Assembly: GCF_014645795.1 (NCBI RefSeq)
Contig: NZ_BMMK01000015.1
Span: forward strand, 1-64,000
Length of the DNA: 64,000 nt
Direction: 5' to 3'
DNA from: Longimycelium tulufanense
GTDB taxonomy: Bacteria; Actinomycetota; Actinomycetes; Mycobacteriales; Pseudonocardiaceae
Shown here piece after piece: positions 17,295-64,000 of the stretch. How positions within the stretch are numbered: the stretch's first letter is position 1; each line of letters starts with the position of its first letter. The notes under the pieces are model-generated. The model worked only from the letters and a program-made list of their open reading frames with translations, was not told the DNA's origin and did no database searches. The translations under genes and the position numbers were made by a program.

Positions 17295-17315
17295 GCGCGC
17301 ACCGGCGGTGCGCGC
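17295..17315 (-). promoter_or_regulatory. Hairpin just past the cobalamin aptamer
   Basis: GCGCGCACCG (17295-17304) and CGGTGCGCGC (17306-17315) are exact complements around one base; a real loop would open 3 or more nt. It begins 7 nt after the aptamer's 3' end, where an expression platform would lie. No T-run follows, so attenuation by Rho or occlusion is as likely as intrinsic termination. Confidence 0.55.
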
Positions 17316-17321
17316 ACCGGT

Positions 17322-17505
17322 GGCAGGTCTTCGGACTCGCGGGCGGGCCGGGCCGACCTCGACCCGGCGGACCTACTGGCCGTCGCTTCCCGGGCGCCTG
17401 CGCGTCCAGTGCTCGACCCTCCCGATACTCCGGAAGGGTGACGGCGGTCGTTCCCGCTCACCGCTGCGGGGCAGTCCCGGAGTCACACCGGGTTCCCTCT
17501 TGCCT
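17322..17505 (-). promoter_or_regulatory. Cobalamin (adenosyl-B12) riboswitch of nrdAB
   Basis: Read on the minus strand, the core runs GAGGGAACCCGGTG, then GACTCCGGGACTGCCCCGC, AGCGGTGAGCGGGAACGACC, and ends with GAGTCCGAAGACCTGCC. These are the conserved blocks of the cobalamin aptamer, including the GGGAA/CCGGTG element and the 3' B12-box type closing strand. It lies about 160 nt upstream of nrdA and in the same direction. Established knowledge: such riboswitches turn off class Ia nrdAB in Streptomyces when B12 allows the class II enzyme to work. Confidence 0.93.
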
Positions 17506-17615
17506 CGCTCCGCCCGGCCGACGGGTGGAGCGAACCACCAGCGCCGGAGAGACTACATCCTGGGGTTGGCCCGGCAAGCAACCCCAACATGTGCGCGTGT
17601 CGCCGGGCTCTGGTA

Positions 17616-46983: not shown

Positions 46984-48332
46984 CCGGCGACGCCGGGAAG
47001 GGCGGGAACGGTTGGTGCGCCACAGAAACTCATGATCTCGTCCCACAGGTCCATTGCCAGCGCGGAGGTCTGGTAGTGCGGTCGGCGCAGCGCGTTGGCC
47101 ACCTGCCGCAGCCGGCGATGCACGCTGTCGGTGCGGCGCCGGGCCGACACCTGCAACACCTCGTGCACCTCGTCGGCGGCACCCTCCAGGTCCTGCCGGC
47201 CCAGCCGGGCCGCGGCCAGGTCCAGCCGAGCCAGGCACAACTCACCGAGCCGCCGCCGCTCCGGCGGCTCGGCGTGGTAGAGCTCAACCGCCTCGAGCGC
47301 GTGCCGCTCAGCCGACACCAGATCGGGCGCCCCGCCCAGCCACAGCCGGGCGGTTGCGGCGTAGAAGATCTGCTTCGCCACCGGGAAGGCGAGCATGCCA
47401 CCCGGGTCGTCCTCGCCGGCCACCTCGTTACGGGCCTGCTCGGCCCGACGCAACGCGCCCTCGGTGGCCCGCCGGTCCCGCAGCCGGCCCTGCGCCCTGG
47501 CCTCAATCGCCGCGAGCCGCACCCGCGCCGTGCCGGCCTCGGGCACGTAACGCCACCCGTCCGCGGCAAGGTCCACCGCGGTCCGCGGCCGGTCGTCCCA
47601 GTACGTGATCAGCGCCTGCGTGCCGCGGACCCACGCCCGCAACGTGTTGCTGCCGGCCAGTTCGGCACACAGGAACGCGGTACGCGCCTGGGTCTCGGCC
47701 GCAGCCAGCCAACCCAGGTCGAACGAGGCGTTCGCCAGCACACCGCACAACACGCCCGCCACCAGGTACAGCTCCCGGGTCTGGTTCGGATGCTGCCGCC
47801 CCTCCAACAACTCGAACACCCGGTCGCGCAACTCCCGCAACTCCAGAAAAACCGGATACACCGGGCGGTTGGGATAGGTCGCCACGATGCGCGCCGCATC
47901 GGCGCGGAACTGCTCCAGGGTGTGCGGGCCCACGTTGGTCTGCTCGGCGAACTGCCCGAACCGGGCGGACTCGGTGGCTGCCATCGCGATCTCCCTCTCC
48001 AACGACCTCGCTGTCGCCTCCTCCGGCGGACCGTCCTGGTGGCCGACGACCGGCTCCCGGGCACCGACGACCGGGTCGAGCCGCGGCGGGCCGAACAGCT
48101 CCTCGGCCGGCTCGGCGAACATGTGCTCCAGCACCCGGCACGTCGCCGGGTGCGGCAACCCGCCGAGCCGGCCGGCCAGCCACCGGCTCGCGTGTCGCTC
48201 CGAGACCGCCATGGTGCGGCCGATCTGTTGCGAGGCCGCCCGGAACTCGGCACAGAACTCCTGTGTGGTCAACCGGCGTTGGCGGACCAGCTGCTCGACT
48301 CTGGTGCGGGGAACGGGACTGGGGCCGGCCAC
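46980..48332 (-). CDS. XRE-like regulator with TPR-type C-terminal region
   Basis: A 450-residue protein of a class common in actinomycetes. The N-terminal 70 residues carry a helix-turn-helix (TTQEFCAEFRAASQQIGRTM, then SERHASRWLAGR). From about residue 120 to the end it is all helical, with repeated Ala/Leu/Arg-rich helix pairs typical of TPR repeats, for ligand or peptide sensing. GTG at 48332 with GAGGGGG upstream. Its stop overlaps the next gene by 4 nt. The divergent promoter carries the repeats at 48421-48450. Confidence 0.8.
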   Translation of the reverse strand: MAGPSPVPRTRVEQLVRQRRLTTQEFCAEFRAASQQIGRTMAVSERHASRWLAGRLGGLPHPATCRVLEHMFAEPAEELFGPPRLDPVVGAREPVVGHQDGPPEEATARSLEREIAMAATESARFGQFAEQTNVGPHTLEQFRADAARIVATYPNRPVYPVFLELRELRDRVFELLEGRQHPNQTRELYLVAGVLCGVLANASFDLGWLAAAETQARTAFLCAELAGSNTLRAWVRGTQALITYWDDRPRTAVDLAADGWRYVPEAGTARVRLAAIEARAQGRLRDRRATEGALRRAEQARNEVAGEDDPGGMLAFPVAKQIFYAATARLWLGGAPDLVSAERHALEAVELYHAEPPERRRLGELCLARLDLAAARLGRQDLEGAADEVHEVLQVSARRRTDSVHRRLRQVANALRRPHYQTSALAMDLWDEIMSFCGAPTVPALPGVAG

Positions 48333-59514: not shown

Positions 59515-60090
59515 TCAGGCGTTCTCGACCGCGGCCAGTATGTGCGGCAGGATGCGGTCGATCGGTTCGGTGGACTGGGCGACCCGGCACAGCAGCACGG
59601 CGCCTTCCAGGGTCGCGAGCATCAACTCGGCCAGGCTTCGTGCCTGCGTCGCGGGGGTCCCGTGTGCCCGCAGGCCATCCCCCAGTTCCGCCACCCAGCC
59701 GTCGTACGCCGCGCGGCAGGCAACGGTGAGCGCCGTGGACCGCGGCACGGAGTCGAGCGCGATCGTGGTGAGGGGAAGTCCCTCGAGGAATCCCGAGGCA
59801 CGCAGCTCCTCGGCGAAGTGGTTGGCCATTGTGCTGATCCACTCCCGCGCCGTGGCGCACTCCCGGCGGTGGTGCCTGATGAACTGGCGGAGCTCGCGGG
59901 CCCATTCGGTGACCGTCGCCACCGCCATCTCCTCCTTCCCACCGGGGAAGAGGAAGTAGACCGATCCGCGCGGTGCCCCGCTGTGCTCGATGACCTGCGC
60001 CAGGCCGGTGCCCTGGTAGCCGTGCCGACGGAACAACGTACGGGCACTGGCGAGGATCCGGTCCTTGGAGTCCGACCGCGGCCTGGGCAC
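59515..60090 (-). CDS. TetR/AcrR family repressor
   Basis: A 191-residue regulator. The helix-turn-helix is KDRILASARTLFRRHGYQGT, then LAQVIEHSGAPRGSVYFLFP. The KEEMAVATV helix and the long C-terminal ligand domain resemble the LmrA/YxaF type. GTG at 60090 has AAGGAGG 5 nt upstream. It lies divergent from the KASIII-OleC operon with a perfect palindrome between the two, so it likely represses that operon and itself. Confidence 0.92.
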   Translation of the reverse strand: MPRPRSDSKDRILASARTLFRRHGYQGTGLAQVIEHSGAPRGSVYFLFPGGKEEMAVATVTEWARELRQFIRHHRRECATAREWISTMANHFAEELRASGFLEGLPLTTIALDSVPRSTALTVACRAAYDGWVAELGDGLRAHGTPATQARSLAELMLATLEGAVLLCRVAQSTEPIDRILPHILAAVENA

Positions 60091-60133
60091 GAGACCCTCC
60101 TTGATCACAGCGAGTTGACGGACATGATCACCC

Positions 60134-60145
60134 TAGTTATAACTA
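60134..60145. promoter_or_regulatory. Candidate TetR operator, perfect 12-bp palindrome
   Basis: TAGTTATAACTA is fully self-complementary and AT-rich in a GC-rich gap. It lies 43 bases upstream of the tetR start and 224 bases before the ketosynthase gene. The short size and position suit a TetR site. Confidence 0.7.
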
Positions 60146-60368
60146 TGAATGTCGGTCTACCTACTCAGCGTGAGGCACCTCCCCGGGCCGGAGGTCGACC
60201 TACCGGGACACAGTCGTTCCGCTGAGTCCCCTGAAGACCGAAGTCACGACCGAGTGCGGTCAGTGTCGTCCGCCGCTGTGGCAAGTACCGGACCCGTCAT
60301 GCCCGCTGCCGGGCATGCCCGGGGTGGGTCACGGCTGGCCGACGACCGGCGGTCCGAAGGAGGAGGCG

Positions 60369-61418
60369 ATGACGCACACCCGTTTCGAGTCGATCGGGGC
60401 TTACCTGCCATCCACGGTGGTACCAACCCGGGATCTCGTGGCACGGATGAAACACACCCCGCCGTTCGACCTGGAAACAGTCACCGGGATCCGCAGAAGA
60501 CACGTCCACGACACGACATCGGAGTCCTATGAGGACTCCTTCACGATGGCCCTGCGCGCCGCGGGCGAGTGCCTGGGTCGATCCCGGTACGCGGCAGCGG
60601 ATCTCGATGTGATCATCTCCACGTCGATCACCCGGTTCCGCGGGCCGGACCGGTTCTACTTCGAACCCTCGTTCGCACTCATGCTGGCCGACGAACTCGG
60701 TGCGCGCTCGGCCATCCACTTCGACGTTTCCAACGCCTGCGCCGGCATGATCACCGGGGTCCAGATACTGGACCGCCTGATCAAGGCCGGCGTGGTGCGC
60801 AACGGCATGGTGGTCAGTGGTGAGCAGATCACCGCGATTGCCGAGACGGCCGTGCGGGAGATCACCGATCCCTACGACCCGCAGTTCGCCTCGCTGACCG
60901 TGGGGGACTCGGCAGCGGCGGCCATTCTCGACGAGTCCACCGACGAGAACGACCGCATCCACTACGTGGAGCTGATGACCTGCGCGGAGTACTCCCACCT
61001 GTGCATCGGGATGCCCAGCGACGCCAACCAGGGTATCGCCCTCTACACCGACAACCAGCAGATGCACAAGGAGGACCGGCTGCGGCTGTGGCCGAGCTTC
61101 CAGGGCGACCTGCTGGCCAAGATGGGCCGCACCTTCGCTGACGAGCAGTTCGACTACGTCATCCACCACCAGGTCGGTACCCGCTTCATCGCGAAGATCA
61201 ACCGGTTCGGCGAGGCTGCGTTCGGTAGCCCCATGCCGGAGTCTCCCGCGGTGGTCTCCGACACCGGGAACACCTCGTCGACGTCCCACTTCGTGGTGCT
61301 GCACGAGTACCTGAAGGCGGGCCGGGTGCGGCCCGGCGCCAAGTTCCTGCTCGTCCCGGCCGCCTCCGGTGTGGTCACCGGCTGCCTGTCCGCCACCGTG
61401 TCGTCTCTCGAGGTGTGA
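60369..61418 (+). CDS. OleA-like ketosynthase III, catalytic subunit
   Basis: A 349-residue thiolase-fold enzyme. ATG at 60369 follows GGAGGAGG. The catalytic Cys is C124 in SNACAGM, His is H267 in VIHHQ and Asn is N301 in GNTSST, the complete KASIII/OleA triad. Glu99 in FYFEPSF sits where OleA proteins carry the glutamate that reaches the partner's active site. OleA joins two acyl chains head to head to a beta-keto acid. Coupled to a second ketosynthase (start 61420) and an OleC-like enzyme. Divergent from tetR. Confidence 0.9.
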   Translation: MTHTRFESIGAYLPSTVVPTRDLVARMKHTPPFDLETVTGIRRRHVHDTTSESYEDSFTMALRAAGECLGRSRYAAADLDVIISTSITRFRGPDRFYFEPSFALMLADELGARSAIHFDVSNACAGMITGVQILDRLIKAGVVRNGMVVSGEQITAIAETAVREITDPYDPQFASLTVGDSAAAAILDESTDENDRIHYVELMTCAEYSHLCIGMPSDANQGIALYTDNQQMHKEDRLRLWPSFQGDLLAKMGRTFADEQFDYVIHHQVGTRFIAKINRFGEAAFGSPMPESPAVVSDTGNTSSTSHFVVLHEYLKAGRVRPGAKFLLVPAASGVVTGCLSATVSSLEV

Positions 61419-61419
61419 T

Positions 61420-62337
61420 GTGGGAACCACCATCAAGGCCACCGCGGTGAGCGCGGACCCGGCCCTCAACAGCTCCATCCGGCACGCGTCCACCGCCGCG
61501 ACCCGGTGCCTCGAGCGCGCCGGGATCAGCACCGACCAGGTCGACCTGCTCATCAACGCGGGCGTGTACCGCGACCGGAACATGGCAGAGCCCGCCATGG
61601 CCGCGCTGATCCAGAAGGAGGTGGGGATCAACCTCGACTACATCGAACACCCCACTCCGACGCCCGGGTTCTCCTTCGACCTGATGAACGGTGCCTGCGG
61701 CATGCTCAACGCGGTCCAAGTCGCCGATGCCTACCTGCGATCCGGGAACGCCGAGTACGCGCTCGTGGTGTCCGGCGACGCACACCCCGGTAACGGCTCC
61801 GCCCGGGACAAGGACACGCACCAGTTCCCCTACGCCGCCTCCGGTGCCGCCATGCTGCTCCAGCGAGGTCTGGACACCGAAGCTGGATTCGGACGGGTAC
61901 GGGTCAGGGTCAGTGCCGGTGCACGACGGGGTGTCGAGGGCTACCTCCCCGTCTCGACGATGGGCACAGAGGGACGCCGCCGCATCACCGTGCAGCAGGA
62001 TGACGACTACGTGGACCAACTGGTGGCGCTGGCCGCCGAGGCCGTCCGCGAGTACGTCCAGGTGGAGAACGTCGACCTCACCGGCACCTTGCTCGTCACC
62101 TCAAGGCCCACCCCGGACTTCGCCATCCAACTGGCGCAACGTCTCGGCGTACCCGAGGAGTCCGCCCTCACCGCGACGGGGGTCGAGGGCGACCCGCACT
62201 CCTCGGCACTGACCTTCGCCTACGAGGAGGCGGTTGCCAGCGGACAAGTGCGTGCGCACGAACAACTGTTGTTCGTCGCCGCCGGGGCCGGGATGACCAC
62301 GGCGTGTGCCCTCTACCGTCCGGAGCCGCAGAGCTGA
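61420..62337 (+). CDS. KASIII-like partner subunit lacking catalytic His/Asn
   Basis: A 305-residue thiolase-fold protein. GTG at 61420 with GAGG upstream. It keeps a Cys (C93, NGACGML) and the Glu of the EP motif (E57, NMAEPAM), but the HQxN site reads SRPT and the GNTS site reads EGDPHSS. So it cannot do the full KASIII reaction alone. This is the pattern of heterodimeric OleA pairs (LstA/LstB, NltA/NltB), where one subunit does chemistry and the other supplies Glu. It is 45 residues shorter than the first subunit at the N-terminus. Ends in a TGATG overlap with the next gene. Confidence 0.88.
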   Translation: MGTTIKATAVSADPALNSSIRHASTAATRCLERAGISTDQVDLLINAGVYRDRNMAEPAMAALIQKEVGINLDYIEHPTPTPGFSFDLMNGACGMLNAVQVADAYLRSGNAEYALVVSGDAHPGNGSARDKDTHQFPYAASGAAMLLQRGLDTEAGFGRVRVRVSAGARRGVEGYLPVSTMGTEGRRRITVQQDDDYVDQLVALAAEAVREYVQVENVDLTGTLLVTSRPTPDFAIQLAQRLGVPEESALTATGVEGDPHSSALTFAYEEAVASGQVRAHEQLLFVAAGAGMTTACALYRPEPQS

Positions 62338-64000
62338 TGACCGAGGCCACACAAGACTCGAGCAGCGAGTTAGCCATTCCGGAACGGCTGCGACGTCACG
62401 CACGGGAACTACCTGACAAGAAAGCCCTCATCTACGCCGACGGGGAGCGCGGAGGACGTGTGGTGTACAGCCACCGCACCTATCGCGAGATCGACCATGA
62501 GTCGGACGCCTACGCCGCGGGGTTTTCCGACCTCGGCATAGGTCAGGGCACGAAGACCATCCTCATGCTTCGCCCGGCCCCCGAACTGTTCGCGGTTGTT
62601 TTCGGGCTACTGAAGATCGGTGCCGTCCCGGTGATGGTTGATCCGGGCATGGGTGTCCGTCGGATGCTGCACTGCTACCGGACCGTCGGGGCCGAAGCAT
62701 TCATCGGGATTCCCGAGGCACACGCGGTCCGCGTCCTCAACCGGACCACGTTCTCCTCGGTCAAGGTGAACGTGACCGCGGGATCGCGGTGGTTCTGGAA
62801 CGGTCCGAGCCTTCGCGACCTGGCGGCCCGACGGTGCACACCGCCCTACACCGCGATGGTTCCGGATGACCTACTCGCGATCAACTTCACCACCGGCTCC
62901 ACCGGTGCGCCGAAGGGGGTGGAATACACCCACGGCATGCTCGACGCGATGCTTCGGCAGATCATCGATACACACGGACACGGAAGCGATCACGTCTCGC
63001 TGGTGACACTCCCGCTGTTCGGGATCTTCGATCTGCTCCTCGGCGCCACCGCGGTCCTTCCCCCGGTGAACCCCACCAAGGTCGCCAAGGCGGACCCGCA
63101 GGTGCTCGTGGAGGCGATCAACCGCTTCGGGGTCAGCACGATGTTCGCCTCGCCCGCGCTGCTCGCCCGACTCAGCAGTCACACGCGTGACAACGGGCTT
63201 CAGCTCTCCAACCTGCGTTGCGTGGTGTCCGGTGGAGCACCGGTGGACGACGCGATCGTGGCCTCGATGCTCGAGACGTTGGGACCACCCGTCAACAACA
63301 GGTTCTTCGCCACCTACGGGGCAACTGAGGCATTGCCGATCGCAGCCATCGACGCCGCGGAGATCGTGGCCGGGACGCGGGTGAAAACACACGAGGGCAG
63401 TGGGACGTGTGTTGGTCGACCCGTCACGGGCGTGGAGGCCACGGTTGTCCGGGTCACCGAGGATCCGCTACCCGAGTGGTCGGACGGCTTGGTCGTCGAC
63501 CGCGGAGAGGTGGGGGAGATCACCCTCTCCGGTTCCTCGGTGAGCCGCCGGTACCACGCTCCGCTGCATGCGAACGCCTTCGCCAAGATCCGACAGGGAG
63601 ACCGGGTCTGGCATCGCACCGGCGACCTCGGTTGGATCGACGAAGACAACCGCATCTGGTTCTGCGGGCGGAAAAGCGAACGAGTATATACCGTTTCTGG
63701 GCCACTGGATACGGCTCGCTGTGAAGGCATCCTCAATGCGCACCCCGATGTGCACCGGACCGCGCTCGTCGGGATTGGTGAGCGACAACGCCAAACCCCG
63801 GTGATCTGTGTGGAGCTTCGCCCGGAGCTGTCGGACGACGAACAGCGCCGGGTCCGGCGTGAGCTGCGTGCGATCGCGCAACGCCATGCCATGACGAGTG
63901 GGATCGACCACTTCCTGTTCCCGCCGAAGTTCCCGGTCGACATCCGGCACAATGCGAAGATCAACCGACGTGCGCTGGCTTCGTGGGCGGAGCGCCAGAT
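62337..64000 (+). CDS. OleC-like beta-lactone synthetase / acyl-adenylating enzyme (cut by window end)
   Basis: Adenylate-forming enzyme; the stop lies beyond 64000. ATG at 62337 shares a base with the previous stop. 554 residues are visible, near full size. The ATP loop is FTTGSTGAPKG (184-194), with GATEALP and HRTGDLGWIDEDNR later. The C-terminus carries KFPVDIRHNAKINRRAL, a strong mark of OleC. OleC turns beta-hydroxy acids into beta-lactones; a reductase (OleD/NltD/LstD-like) should lie next to the right. Confidence 0.9.
   Translation, partial: MTEATQDSSSELAIPERLRRHARELPDKKALIYADGERGGRVVYSHRTYREIDHESDAYAAGFSDLGIGQGTKTILMLRPAPELFAVVFGLLKIGAVPVMVDPGMGVRRMLHCYRTVGAEAFIGIPEAHAVRVLNRTTFSSVKVNVTAGSRWFWNGPSLRDLAARRCTPPYTAMVPDDLLAINFTTGSTGAPKGVEYTHGMLDAMLRQIIDTHGHGSDHVSLVTLPLFGIFDLLLGATAVLPPVNPTKVAKADPQVLVEAINRFGVSTMFASPALLARLSSHTRDNGLQLSNLRCVVSGGAPVDDAIVASMLETLGPPVNNRFFATYGATEALPIAAIDAAEIVAGTRVKTHEGSGTCVGRPVTGVEATVVRVTEDPLPEWSDGLVVDRGEVGEITLSGSSVSRRYHAPLHANAFAKIRQGDRVWHRTGDLGWIDEDNRIWFCGRKSERVYTVSGPLDTARCEGILNAHPDVHRTALVGIGERQRQTPVICVELRPELSDDEQRRVRRELRAIAQRHAMTSGIDHFLFPPKFPVDIRHNAKINRRALASWAERQ

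Follow-up and report, generated by a model that had tools for sequence, protein, structure and literature searches.

The window analysed here (positions 1 to 64000 of contig C15, NZ_BMMK01000015.1, a contig of 159,475 bases) comes from Longimycelium tulufanense, a member of the Pseudonocardiaceae with a genome of 6.83 Mb in 114 contigs. At its right edge it enters a six-gene operon, A–F, that resembles the lst cluster for lipstatin, the parent of the anti-obesity drug orlistat. The operon spans contig positions 60369-69052 and continues 5 kb beyond the window end:

60369..61418, plus strand: A, LstA-like catalytic subunit of the beta-ketoacyl-acyl carrier protein synthase III (KAS-III) kind, with Cys124, His267, Asn301 and Glu99-Pro100
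61420..62337, plus strand: B, GTG start, LstB-like partner subunit with Glu57 and without the Cys/His/Asn triad
62337..64307 (in the window to 64000), plus strand: C, OleC/LstC-type beta-lactone synthetase
64304-65335, plus strand: D, OleD/LstD-type reductase
65340-68357, plus strand: E, LstE-like non-ribosomal peptide synthetase (NRPS) with a condensation fold, an adenylation domain and a carrier
68354-69052, plus strand: F, LstF-like formyltransferase

Between neighbouring genes there is either an overlap of 1 or 4 nucleotides (nt) or a gap of 1 or 4 nt, and all six frames are open, with their catalytic residues in place. The ATG of A at 60369 is preceded by a good ribosome-binding site, AAGGAGGAGG; an alternative ATG lies at 60315. 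A first-pass annotation of the window had described A, B and C as a heterodimeric OleA-type pair followed by OleC, with the layout of either the lipstatin or the nocardiolactone genes, and had preferred a beta-lactone to an olefin as the product. The three open reading frames are present in the range and order it gave. Past 64000 come genes for a reductase of the OleD/LstD type, for an NRPS and for a formyltransferase, with no oleB-like gene in the operon; D, E and F support the preference for a beta-lactone, and because reductase, NRPS and formyltransferase lie downstream, the layout is settled as that of lipstatin. Judged by its sequence, the cluster is of an established type, and what is new about it is the host group and the adenylation code; we consider that the operon makes a beta-lactone of the lipstatin family (probability roughly 0.86).

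A and B both match ACP_syn_III and ACP_syn_III_C in Pfam. To obtain relatives for comparison, 84,980 species genomes were scanned using four aligned B proteins; of the 129 relatives that this gave, the best 80 were analysed, and any weaker lst-like loci would lie outside these. The lst cluster of Streptomyces toxytricini is absent from the loci found, and that on the Streptomyces globosus plasmid NZ_CP030864.1 is used as its stand-in. The operon's proteins are identical to those of S. globosus to the extent of 59% for A, 41% for B, 49% for C, 56% for D and 50% for F, and within E 45% for the condensation part and 39% for the adenylation part. Counted from ATG 60369, residues Cys124, His267 and Asn301 of A are as first annotated, and in a joint alignment that sets 92 A proteins beside 92 B proteins (the cut or frameshifted L044 and L073 were omitted) the triad is kept in 92/92 A proteins; A retains Glu as well in 91 of the 92. 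At the catalytic columns of A, the B proteins carry Ala, Ser or Gly for Cys, a gap for His (92/92) and never Asn (0/92), which bears out the earlier description of B as lacking the His and Asn sites. The same description had B keep Glu57 and Cys93. Glu57 holds: it occupies the column of LstB Glu60 and is Glu in 94/94 proteins of the B set (window B plus those of 93 related loci) and in 92/92 of the joint alignment. Cys93, however, does not stand as a catalytic residue, as it sits one column behind the catalytic Cys of A and the position is Cys in 44 of the 94, Val in 32 and Thr in 15. Since the Glu is invariant whereas the Cys close to it varies, B seems to serve purely as a donor of glutamate: the whole triad is lost, the glutamate is kept, and Glu57 would work in the active site of A. 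The numbering of LstA (Cys128/His271/Asn305) and LstB (Glu60) matches the annotated S. globosus proteins exactly; the triad of A has the spacing of LstA, four residues earlier, and the Glu of B lies three residues earlier than in LstB. According to a review of LstAB, LstA and LstB are soluble only when together, activity is lost in the LstA Cys128Ala, LstA His271Ala and LstB Glu60Ala mutants, and LstAB joins a C14 3-hydroxy-dienoyl-coenzyme A (CoA) to a C8 acyl-CoA (PMC12141560).

The pair is assigned to the OleA type for its Glu-Pro motif, its split into two subunits and its OleC/OleD neighbours, and not for overall similarity. The Glu-Pro motif is present in A, and FabH 8vd9 shows a gap at that Glu; PMC7064751 describes the motif as particular to OleA homologues. 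Three further KAS-III-like genes are found in the host genome.

C bears the OleC C-terminal motif PVDIRHNAKI, as first annotated, and runs on to 64307. It matches AMP-binding in Pfam. Against both NCBIfam models for olefin beta-lactone synthetases it reaches 548 and 442 bits, under their cut-offs of 900 and 850, and its top NCBIfam match, at 606 bits and above the cut-off of 478, is the model for a family of fatty acid CoA ligases. D matches 3Beta_HSD/epimerase in Pfam, and its top NCBIfam matches are two OleD-type models (207 and 205 bits, under the cut-off of 580). That A, C and D are of OleA/C/D type is also what a head-to-head olefin pathway (ole) would show if OleB were encoded elsewhere in the genome. 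Between 60369 and 69052 there is no oleB-like or alpha/beta hydrolase gene, although no genome-wide search for an unlinked oleB was made; none of the six genes encodes an alpha/beta hydrolase, the split A–B pair is of the lst/nlt type, and neither an NRPS nor a formyltransferase is known to act in olefin synthesis. An olefin is the least probable product that we have considered, and a very improbable one. As a separate observation, C has a hydrophobic C-terminal extension of about 100 residues, shared with most related C genes, and on the Rhodococcus H-CA8f plasmid this stretch forms a separate small gene between C and D (L112:11564-11851).

E matches AMP-binding, AMP-binding_C and PP-binding in Pfam. 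Its residues 1-415 have no sequence match at E<=1, either in Pfam or by phmmer against the PDB. A structure model of these residues, made from a 32-sequence alignment with its own sequence included (predicted local distance difference test, pLDDT, 87.6; predicted template modelling score, pTM, 0.88), has 266 matches among PDB chains (E<=0.001). Going by their titles, the best 50 of the 266 are mostly NRPS domains for condensation, cyclization or epimerization, or enzymes that contain such domains; the first match is AzeD, termed a dehydratase (E 8e-22). On this modelled fold, the N-terminal 415 residues are assigned to the NRPS condensation-type domains, a kinship visible by fold alone. The host genome is rich in NRPS genes, with 15 Pfam condensation-family matches on contigs C1, C5, C7 and C8, none of which is the E of the operon.

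The adenylation codes were read from an alignment of 27 domains at the ten positions of the GrsA numbering; the tenth (Lys) was set, not read. The code of the operon, DGHLVVVIVK, is found in 0/26 other domains compared, and a comparison with published codes assigned no amino acid to it. The S. globosus/flavotricini/avidinii group (n=7), taken as specific for leucine, has DIFALL[AG]V[AV]K. An asparagine-like group (n=7) has DLTKLVEIGK, close to the asparagine code DLTKLGEVGK; the code of the operon departs from DLTKLVEIGK at six positions out of ten. The remaining codes are DLM[GS]L... (n=6), DI[FI]ALV.VGK (n=2) and DMA.VISI.K (n=4). In trees (support given as ultrafast bootstrap/SH-like approximate likelihood-ratio test, SH-aLRT, and starred at 95/80), the Asn-code clade, with its seven members, is the sister group of the E adenylation domain (91/88, not starred). 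The closest adenylation domains are those of Asn-code clusters, at 51-57% identity. In its first 415 residues, E reads FHGVMDG at the place of HHAVMD[GA] in five Asn-code relatives. These data bear on whether the product could be lipstatin itself, with N-formyl-leucine on a C22 backbone. Its six genes, in the same order, are those of the S. globosus cluster; yet the seven domains with DIFALL[AG]V[AV]K have only the first and the last of the ten code positions in common with it (the ninth also in 2/7, making three), and the sister of its adenylation domain in the tree is the Asn-like clade and not the S. globosus group. We regard lipstatin itself as a product with a small chance only, though a better one than the olefin.

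F matches Formyl_trans_N in Pfam and contains NVHNGPLP and VDAGIDTG, whose N-x-H and D we take to be the formyltransferase residues. Within the lst F proteins it stands by itself on a long branch. When eight F-like genes from other NRPS loci are added to the tree, the lst F proteins, that of the window included, stay apart (100/99). An origin of F by borrowing from the other NRPS-locus formyltransferases of the same family was considered and rejected, since the tree groups F with the lst F proteins. LstF-like formyltransferases also occur in 11 genomes of genus g30 of that family; among the loci examined (L123-L130), A, B or D over 55 bits is present in none of the eight surroundings read and two or more adenylation domains in six of them, and these loci are possibly siderophore clusters.

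Whether the code reading is meaningful was checked on the Asn-like group, where what lies behind lstE mostly goes with the adenylation code. Six of the seven Asn-code loci are without F, and in the genomes of these six the best F match (2.7e-7) is located elsewhere. In five of the seven (L021, L031, L033, L035 and L073) a GNAT acetyltransferase gene takes the place of F, overlapping the stop of E or beginning within 15 nt of it; the exceptions are S. hygroscopicus ATCC 21589 (L039), which has F, and Wenjunlia (L020), with neither F nor GNAT. A search for the GNAT gene in S. flavotricini and in the genome of the window found none (E<=1e-10). Esterastin carries N-acetyl-asparagine and no formyl group, and Asn-code clusters with a GNAT gene behind lstE are, from their gene content, likely of the esterastin type; among the literature matches listed, no title reports an esterastin cluster. 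Because code and cap gene travel together in most Asn-like loci, the operon of the window should yield the N-formyl ester of another amino acid. We suggest as a reading rule that the adenylation code, taken together with the gene behind lstE (formyltransferase or acetyltransferase), tells the amino-acid cap.

An E-type adenylation domain (>300 bits) is present in 23 of the best 80 of the 129 loci, and A–F are found together, F included, in 17; the hosts of the 17 are Streptomyces, Kitasatospora, Rhodococcus and one actinobacterium without a genus name. None of the 47 Nocardia loci has an E-type adenylation domain or F, and in 41 of them there is a stand-alone homologue of the condensation domain of E. 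The six without it (L036, L056, L075, L080, L082 and L090) end at contig ends, and as further loci are cut by contig ends (for example L018 and L030), the absence of a gene from these is uninformative. The presence of a condensation-domain relative behind D in Nocardia (for example L037:13957-15114, and L045) may point to an acyl transfer in pathways of the nocardiolactone type. In the family of the window, B is found in 3/390 genomes (E<=1e-15) and F in 12/390 (E<=1e-25); the only one of the 390 with both is that of the window, whose genus is represented by one genome in the searched set. The RpoB of this genome is 90-91% identical to that of two genomes of the same family, 85% to that of Antrihabitans and of a genome of family f2, 78-82% to two partial copies from Nocardia beijingensis, 78% to S. 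flavotricini and Allosalinactinospora and 76% to the partial copy of the Dactylosporangium metagenome-assembled genome, values that serve only to exclude groups. An even sample of the phylum has B in 9/396 genomes, the window's own included (E<=1e-20). In the A tree, A groups with a Dactylosporangium metagenome-assembled genome and Allosalinactinospora (94/95, not starred; deeper forks 80/80).

The Nocardia loci bring in another possibility, that A–B–C–D make a plain dialkyl beta-lactone of the nocardiolactone type and that E and F serve something else. The Nocardia loci, and a genome of the window's own family (G230), do have A–D but no E-type adenylation domain, and A and B are equally similar to the proteins of Nocardia and of S. 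globosus. However, E begins 4 nt behind D and F overlaps E, A–F share one locus in the 17 cases just given, and both the E adenylation domain and F group with lst-type loci. Both this possibility and that of an olefin were dropped once the DNA past 64000 showed D, E and F; we hold a nocardiolactone-type product to be improbable, more so than lipstatin itself. The position of the window's genome as the sole member of its family with B and F, the unusual adenylation code and the long branch of F could also be signs of a decayed or silent cluster, but the six open frames and the catalytic residues in place speak against this, and we rate a decayed or silent cluster as just as improbable as a nocardiolactone-type product.

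Returning to a lipstatin-family beta-lactone as the preferred product, the genes, their order and coupling, the residues, the condensation fold and the grouping with lst are observed, and the reactions and their order are inferred from the work on S. toxytricini and from general chemistry. The A–B heterodimer would join two fatty acyl-CoAs without decarboxylation, using Cys, His and Asn of A and Glu57 of B. D would then reduce the beta-keto acid to a 2-alkyl-3-hydroxy acid, and C would adenylate the carboxylate and close the beta-lactone. For E and F, the roles follow from domain content and from the structure of lipstatin: E would load an amino acid, which F would N-formylate, and the condensation domain of E would transfer the amino acid to a free hydroxyl of one acyl chain, giving an N-formyl-aminoacyl ester. 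Its strained lactone would make the compound an inhibitor of serine hydrolases, lipases among them. Because DGHLVVVIVK differs from the codes of 26/26 relatives compared, the expected product is a lipstatin congener whose N-formyl amino acid is probably neither leucine nor asparagine. Since the adenylation domain is sister to the Asn clade yet differs at six of the ten positions, and since F is of the lst kind, the amino acid might even be new to this compound family, whose known members carry Leu, Val, Ala, Gly or Asn, a suggestion that we make tentatively and consider less probable than its opposite.

Several observations weigh against assigning the operon to the lipstatin family. Profiles of both ketosynthase subunits score better against FabH structures than against the OleA structures 3row and 4kti (A, best 130 bits versus 92; B, 65 versus 53). 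For A and B, identity to S. globosus (59% and 41%) is no higher than identity to the Nocardia loci (58-62% and 42-49%). Because the identity of A and B does not separate S. globosus from Nocardia, the lst assignment rests on E and F. The branch of F has 0.79-0.82 changes per site, and the tree tool warns that its placement is unsure. Moreover, the adenylation code does not match that of the S. globosus group, which makes lipstatin itself unlikely. Finally, the TetR gene upstream of A is not conserved among the relatives.

This regulator and the other features around the operon and elsewhere in the window are as follows:

59515..60108, minus strand: TetR-family regulator with an LmrA/YxaF-like C-terminal domain, divergent from the operon
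60134..60145, no strand: TAGTTATAACTA, a perfect palindrome of 12 bp in the interval from TetR to A
69074-69823, minus strand: YidC-like gene, right of the operon and facing A–F
47462-47557, minus strand: tRNA-Arg prediction, anticodon GCG, 96 nt
17305-17554, minus strand: cobalamin riboswitch, 59.9 bits

The three genes had been said to follow a TetR regulator. The regulator does adjoin them, but it is encoded on the minus strand and points away from A. Its protein, which matches TetR_N (2.8e-9) and TetR_C_13_2 (1.8e-25) in Pfam, has no match at E<=1e-5 across the 80 related loci. On this evidence, the TetR gene is not part of the conserved cluster and would be a local regulator at most. The palindrome TAGTTATAACTA is the sole match in the window when up to one mismatch is allowed, with none in 100 shuffles; it was chosen after the sequence had been read, and is a weak candidate for an operator. 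A search for inverted repeats in the interval between TetR and A gave one imperfect 13-nt pair, which we do not use as evidence. The tRNA-Arg prediction, odd in both anticodon and length, may be a pseudogene or a miscall.

The operon places a complete lipstatin-type cluster outside Streptomyces and is a target in the search for a new inhibitor of lipases or other serine hydrolases. Among the literature matches listed, there is no lst-type cluster for the family of the window, and lipstatin and its cluster are tied to Streptomyces. Predicted beta-lactone genes of another set are described for A. atraurantiacus in PMC7064751. Of the systems known, the lst cluster of S. globosus has the same six genes, A–F, in the same order, and shares the LstA triad, the Glu of LstB, an E with condensation, adenylation and carrier parts, and the formyltransferase F; it differs in its adenylation code, in a protein identity of 39-59% and in the tree, where A groups elsewhere. 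The order A–F is also that of Streptomyces NBC_01001, with one small open reading frame ahead of the NRPS gene, and of Rhodococcus H-CA8f, where the C extension has an open reading frame to itself. The Asn-code lst-like clusters (Allosalinactinospora, S. inhibens, S. sioyaensis, S. kronopolitis and others) have A–E in common with the operon, whereas their code is DLTKLVEIGK in place of DGHLVVVIVK and five of the seven have GNAT where the operon has F. The nlt clusters of Nocardia, the genus in which nocardiolactone clusters occur according to PMC7413640, share A, B, C and D and add a stand-alone homologue of the E condensation domain; unlike the operon, the loci read have neither an E-type adenylation domain nor F. 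More distant are the oleABCD systems of Xanthomonas and others, in which OleA, OleD and OleC lead to a beta-lactone, as they do in clusters that lack oleB and make beta-lactones (PMC7064751). They have in common with the operon the Glu-Pro motif of OleA and the OleC- and OleD-type enzymes, and differ from it in having OleB and a homodimeric OleA, and neither an NRPS nor a formyltransferase.

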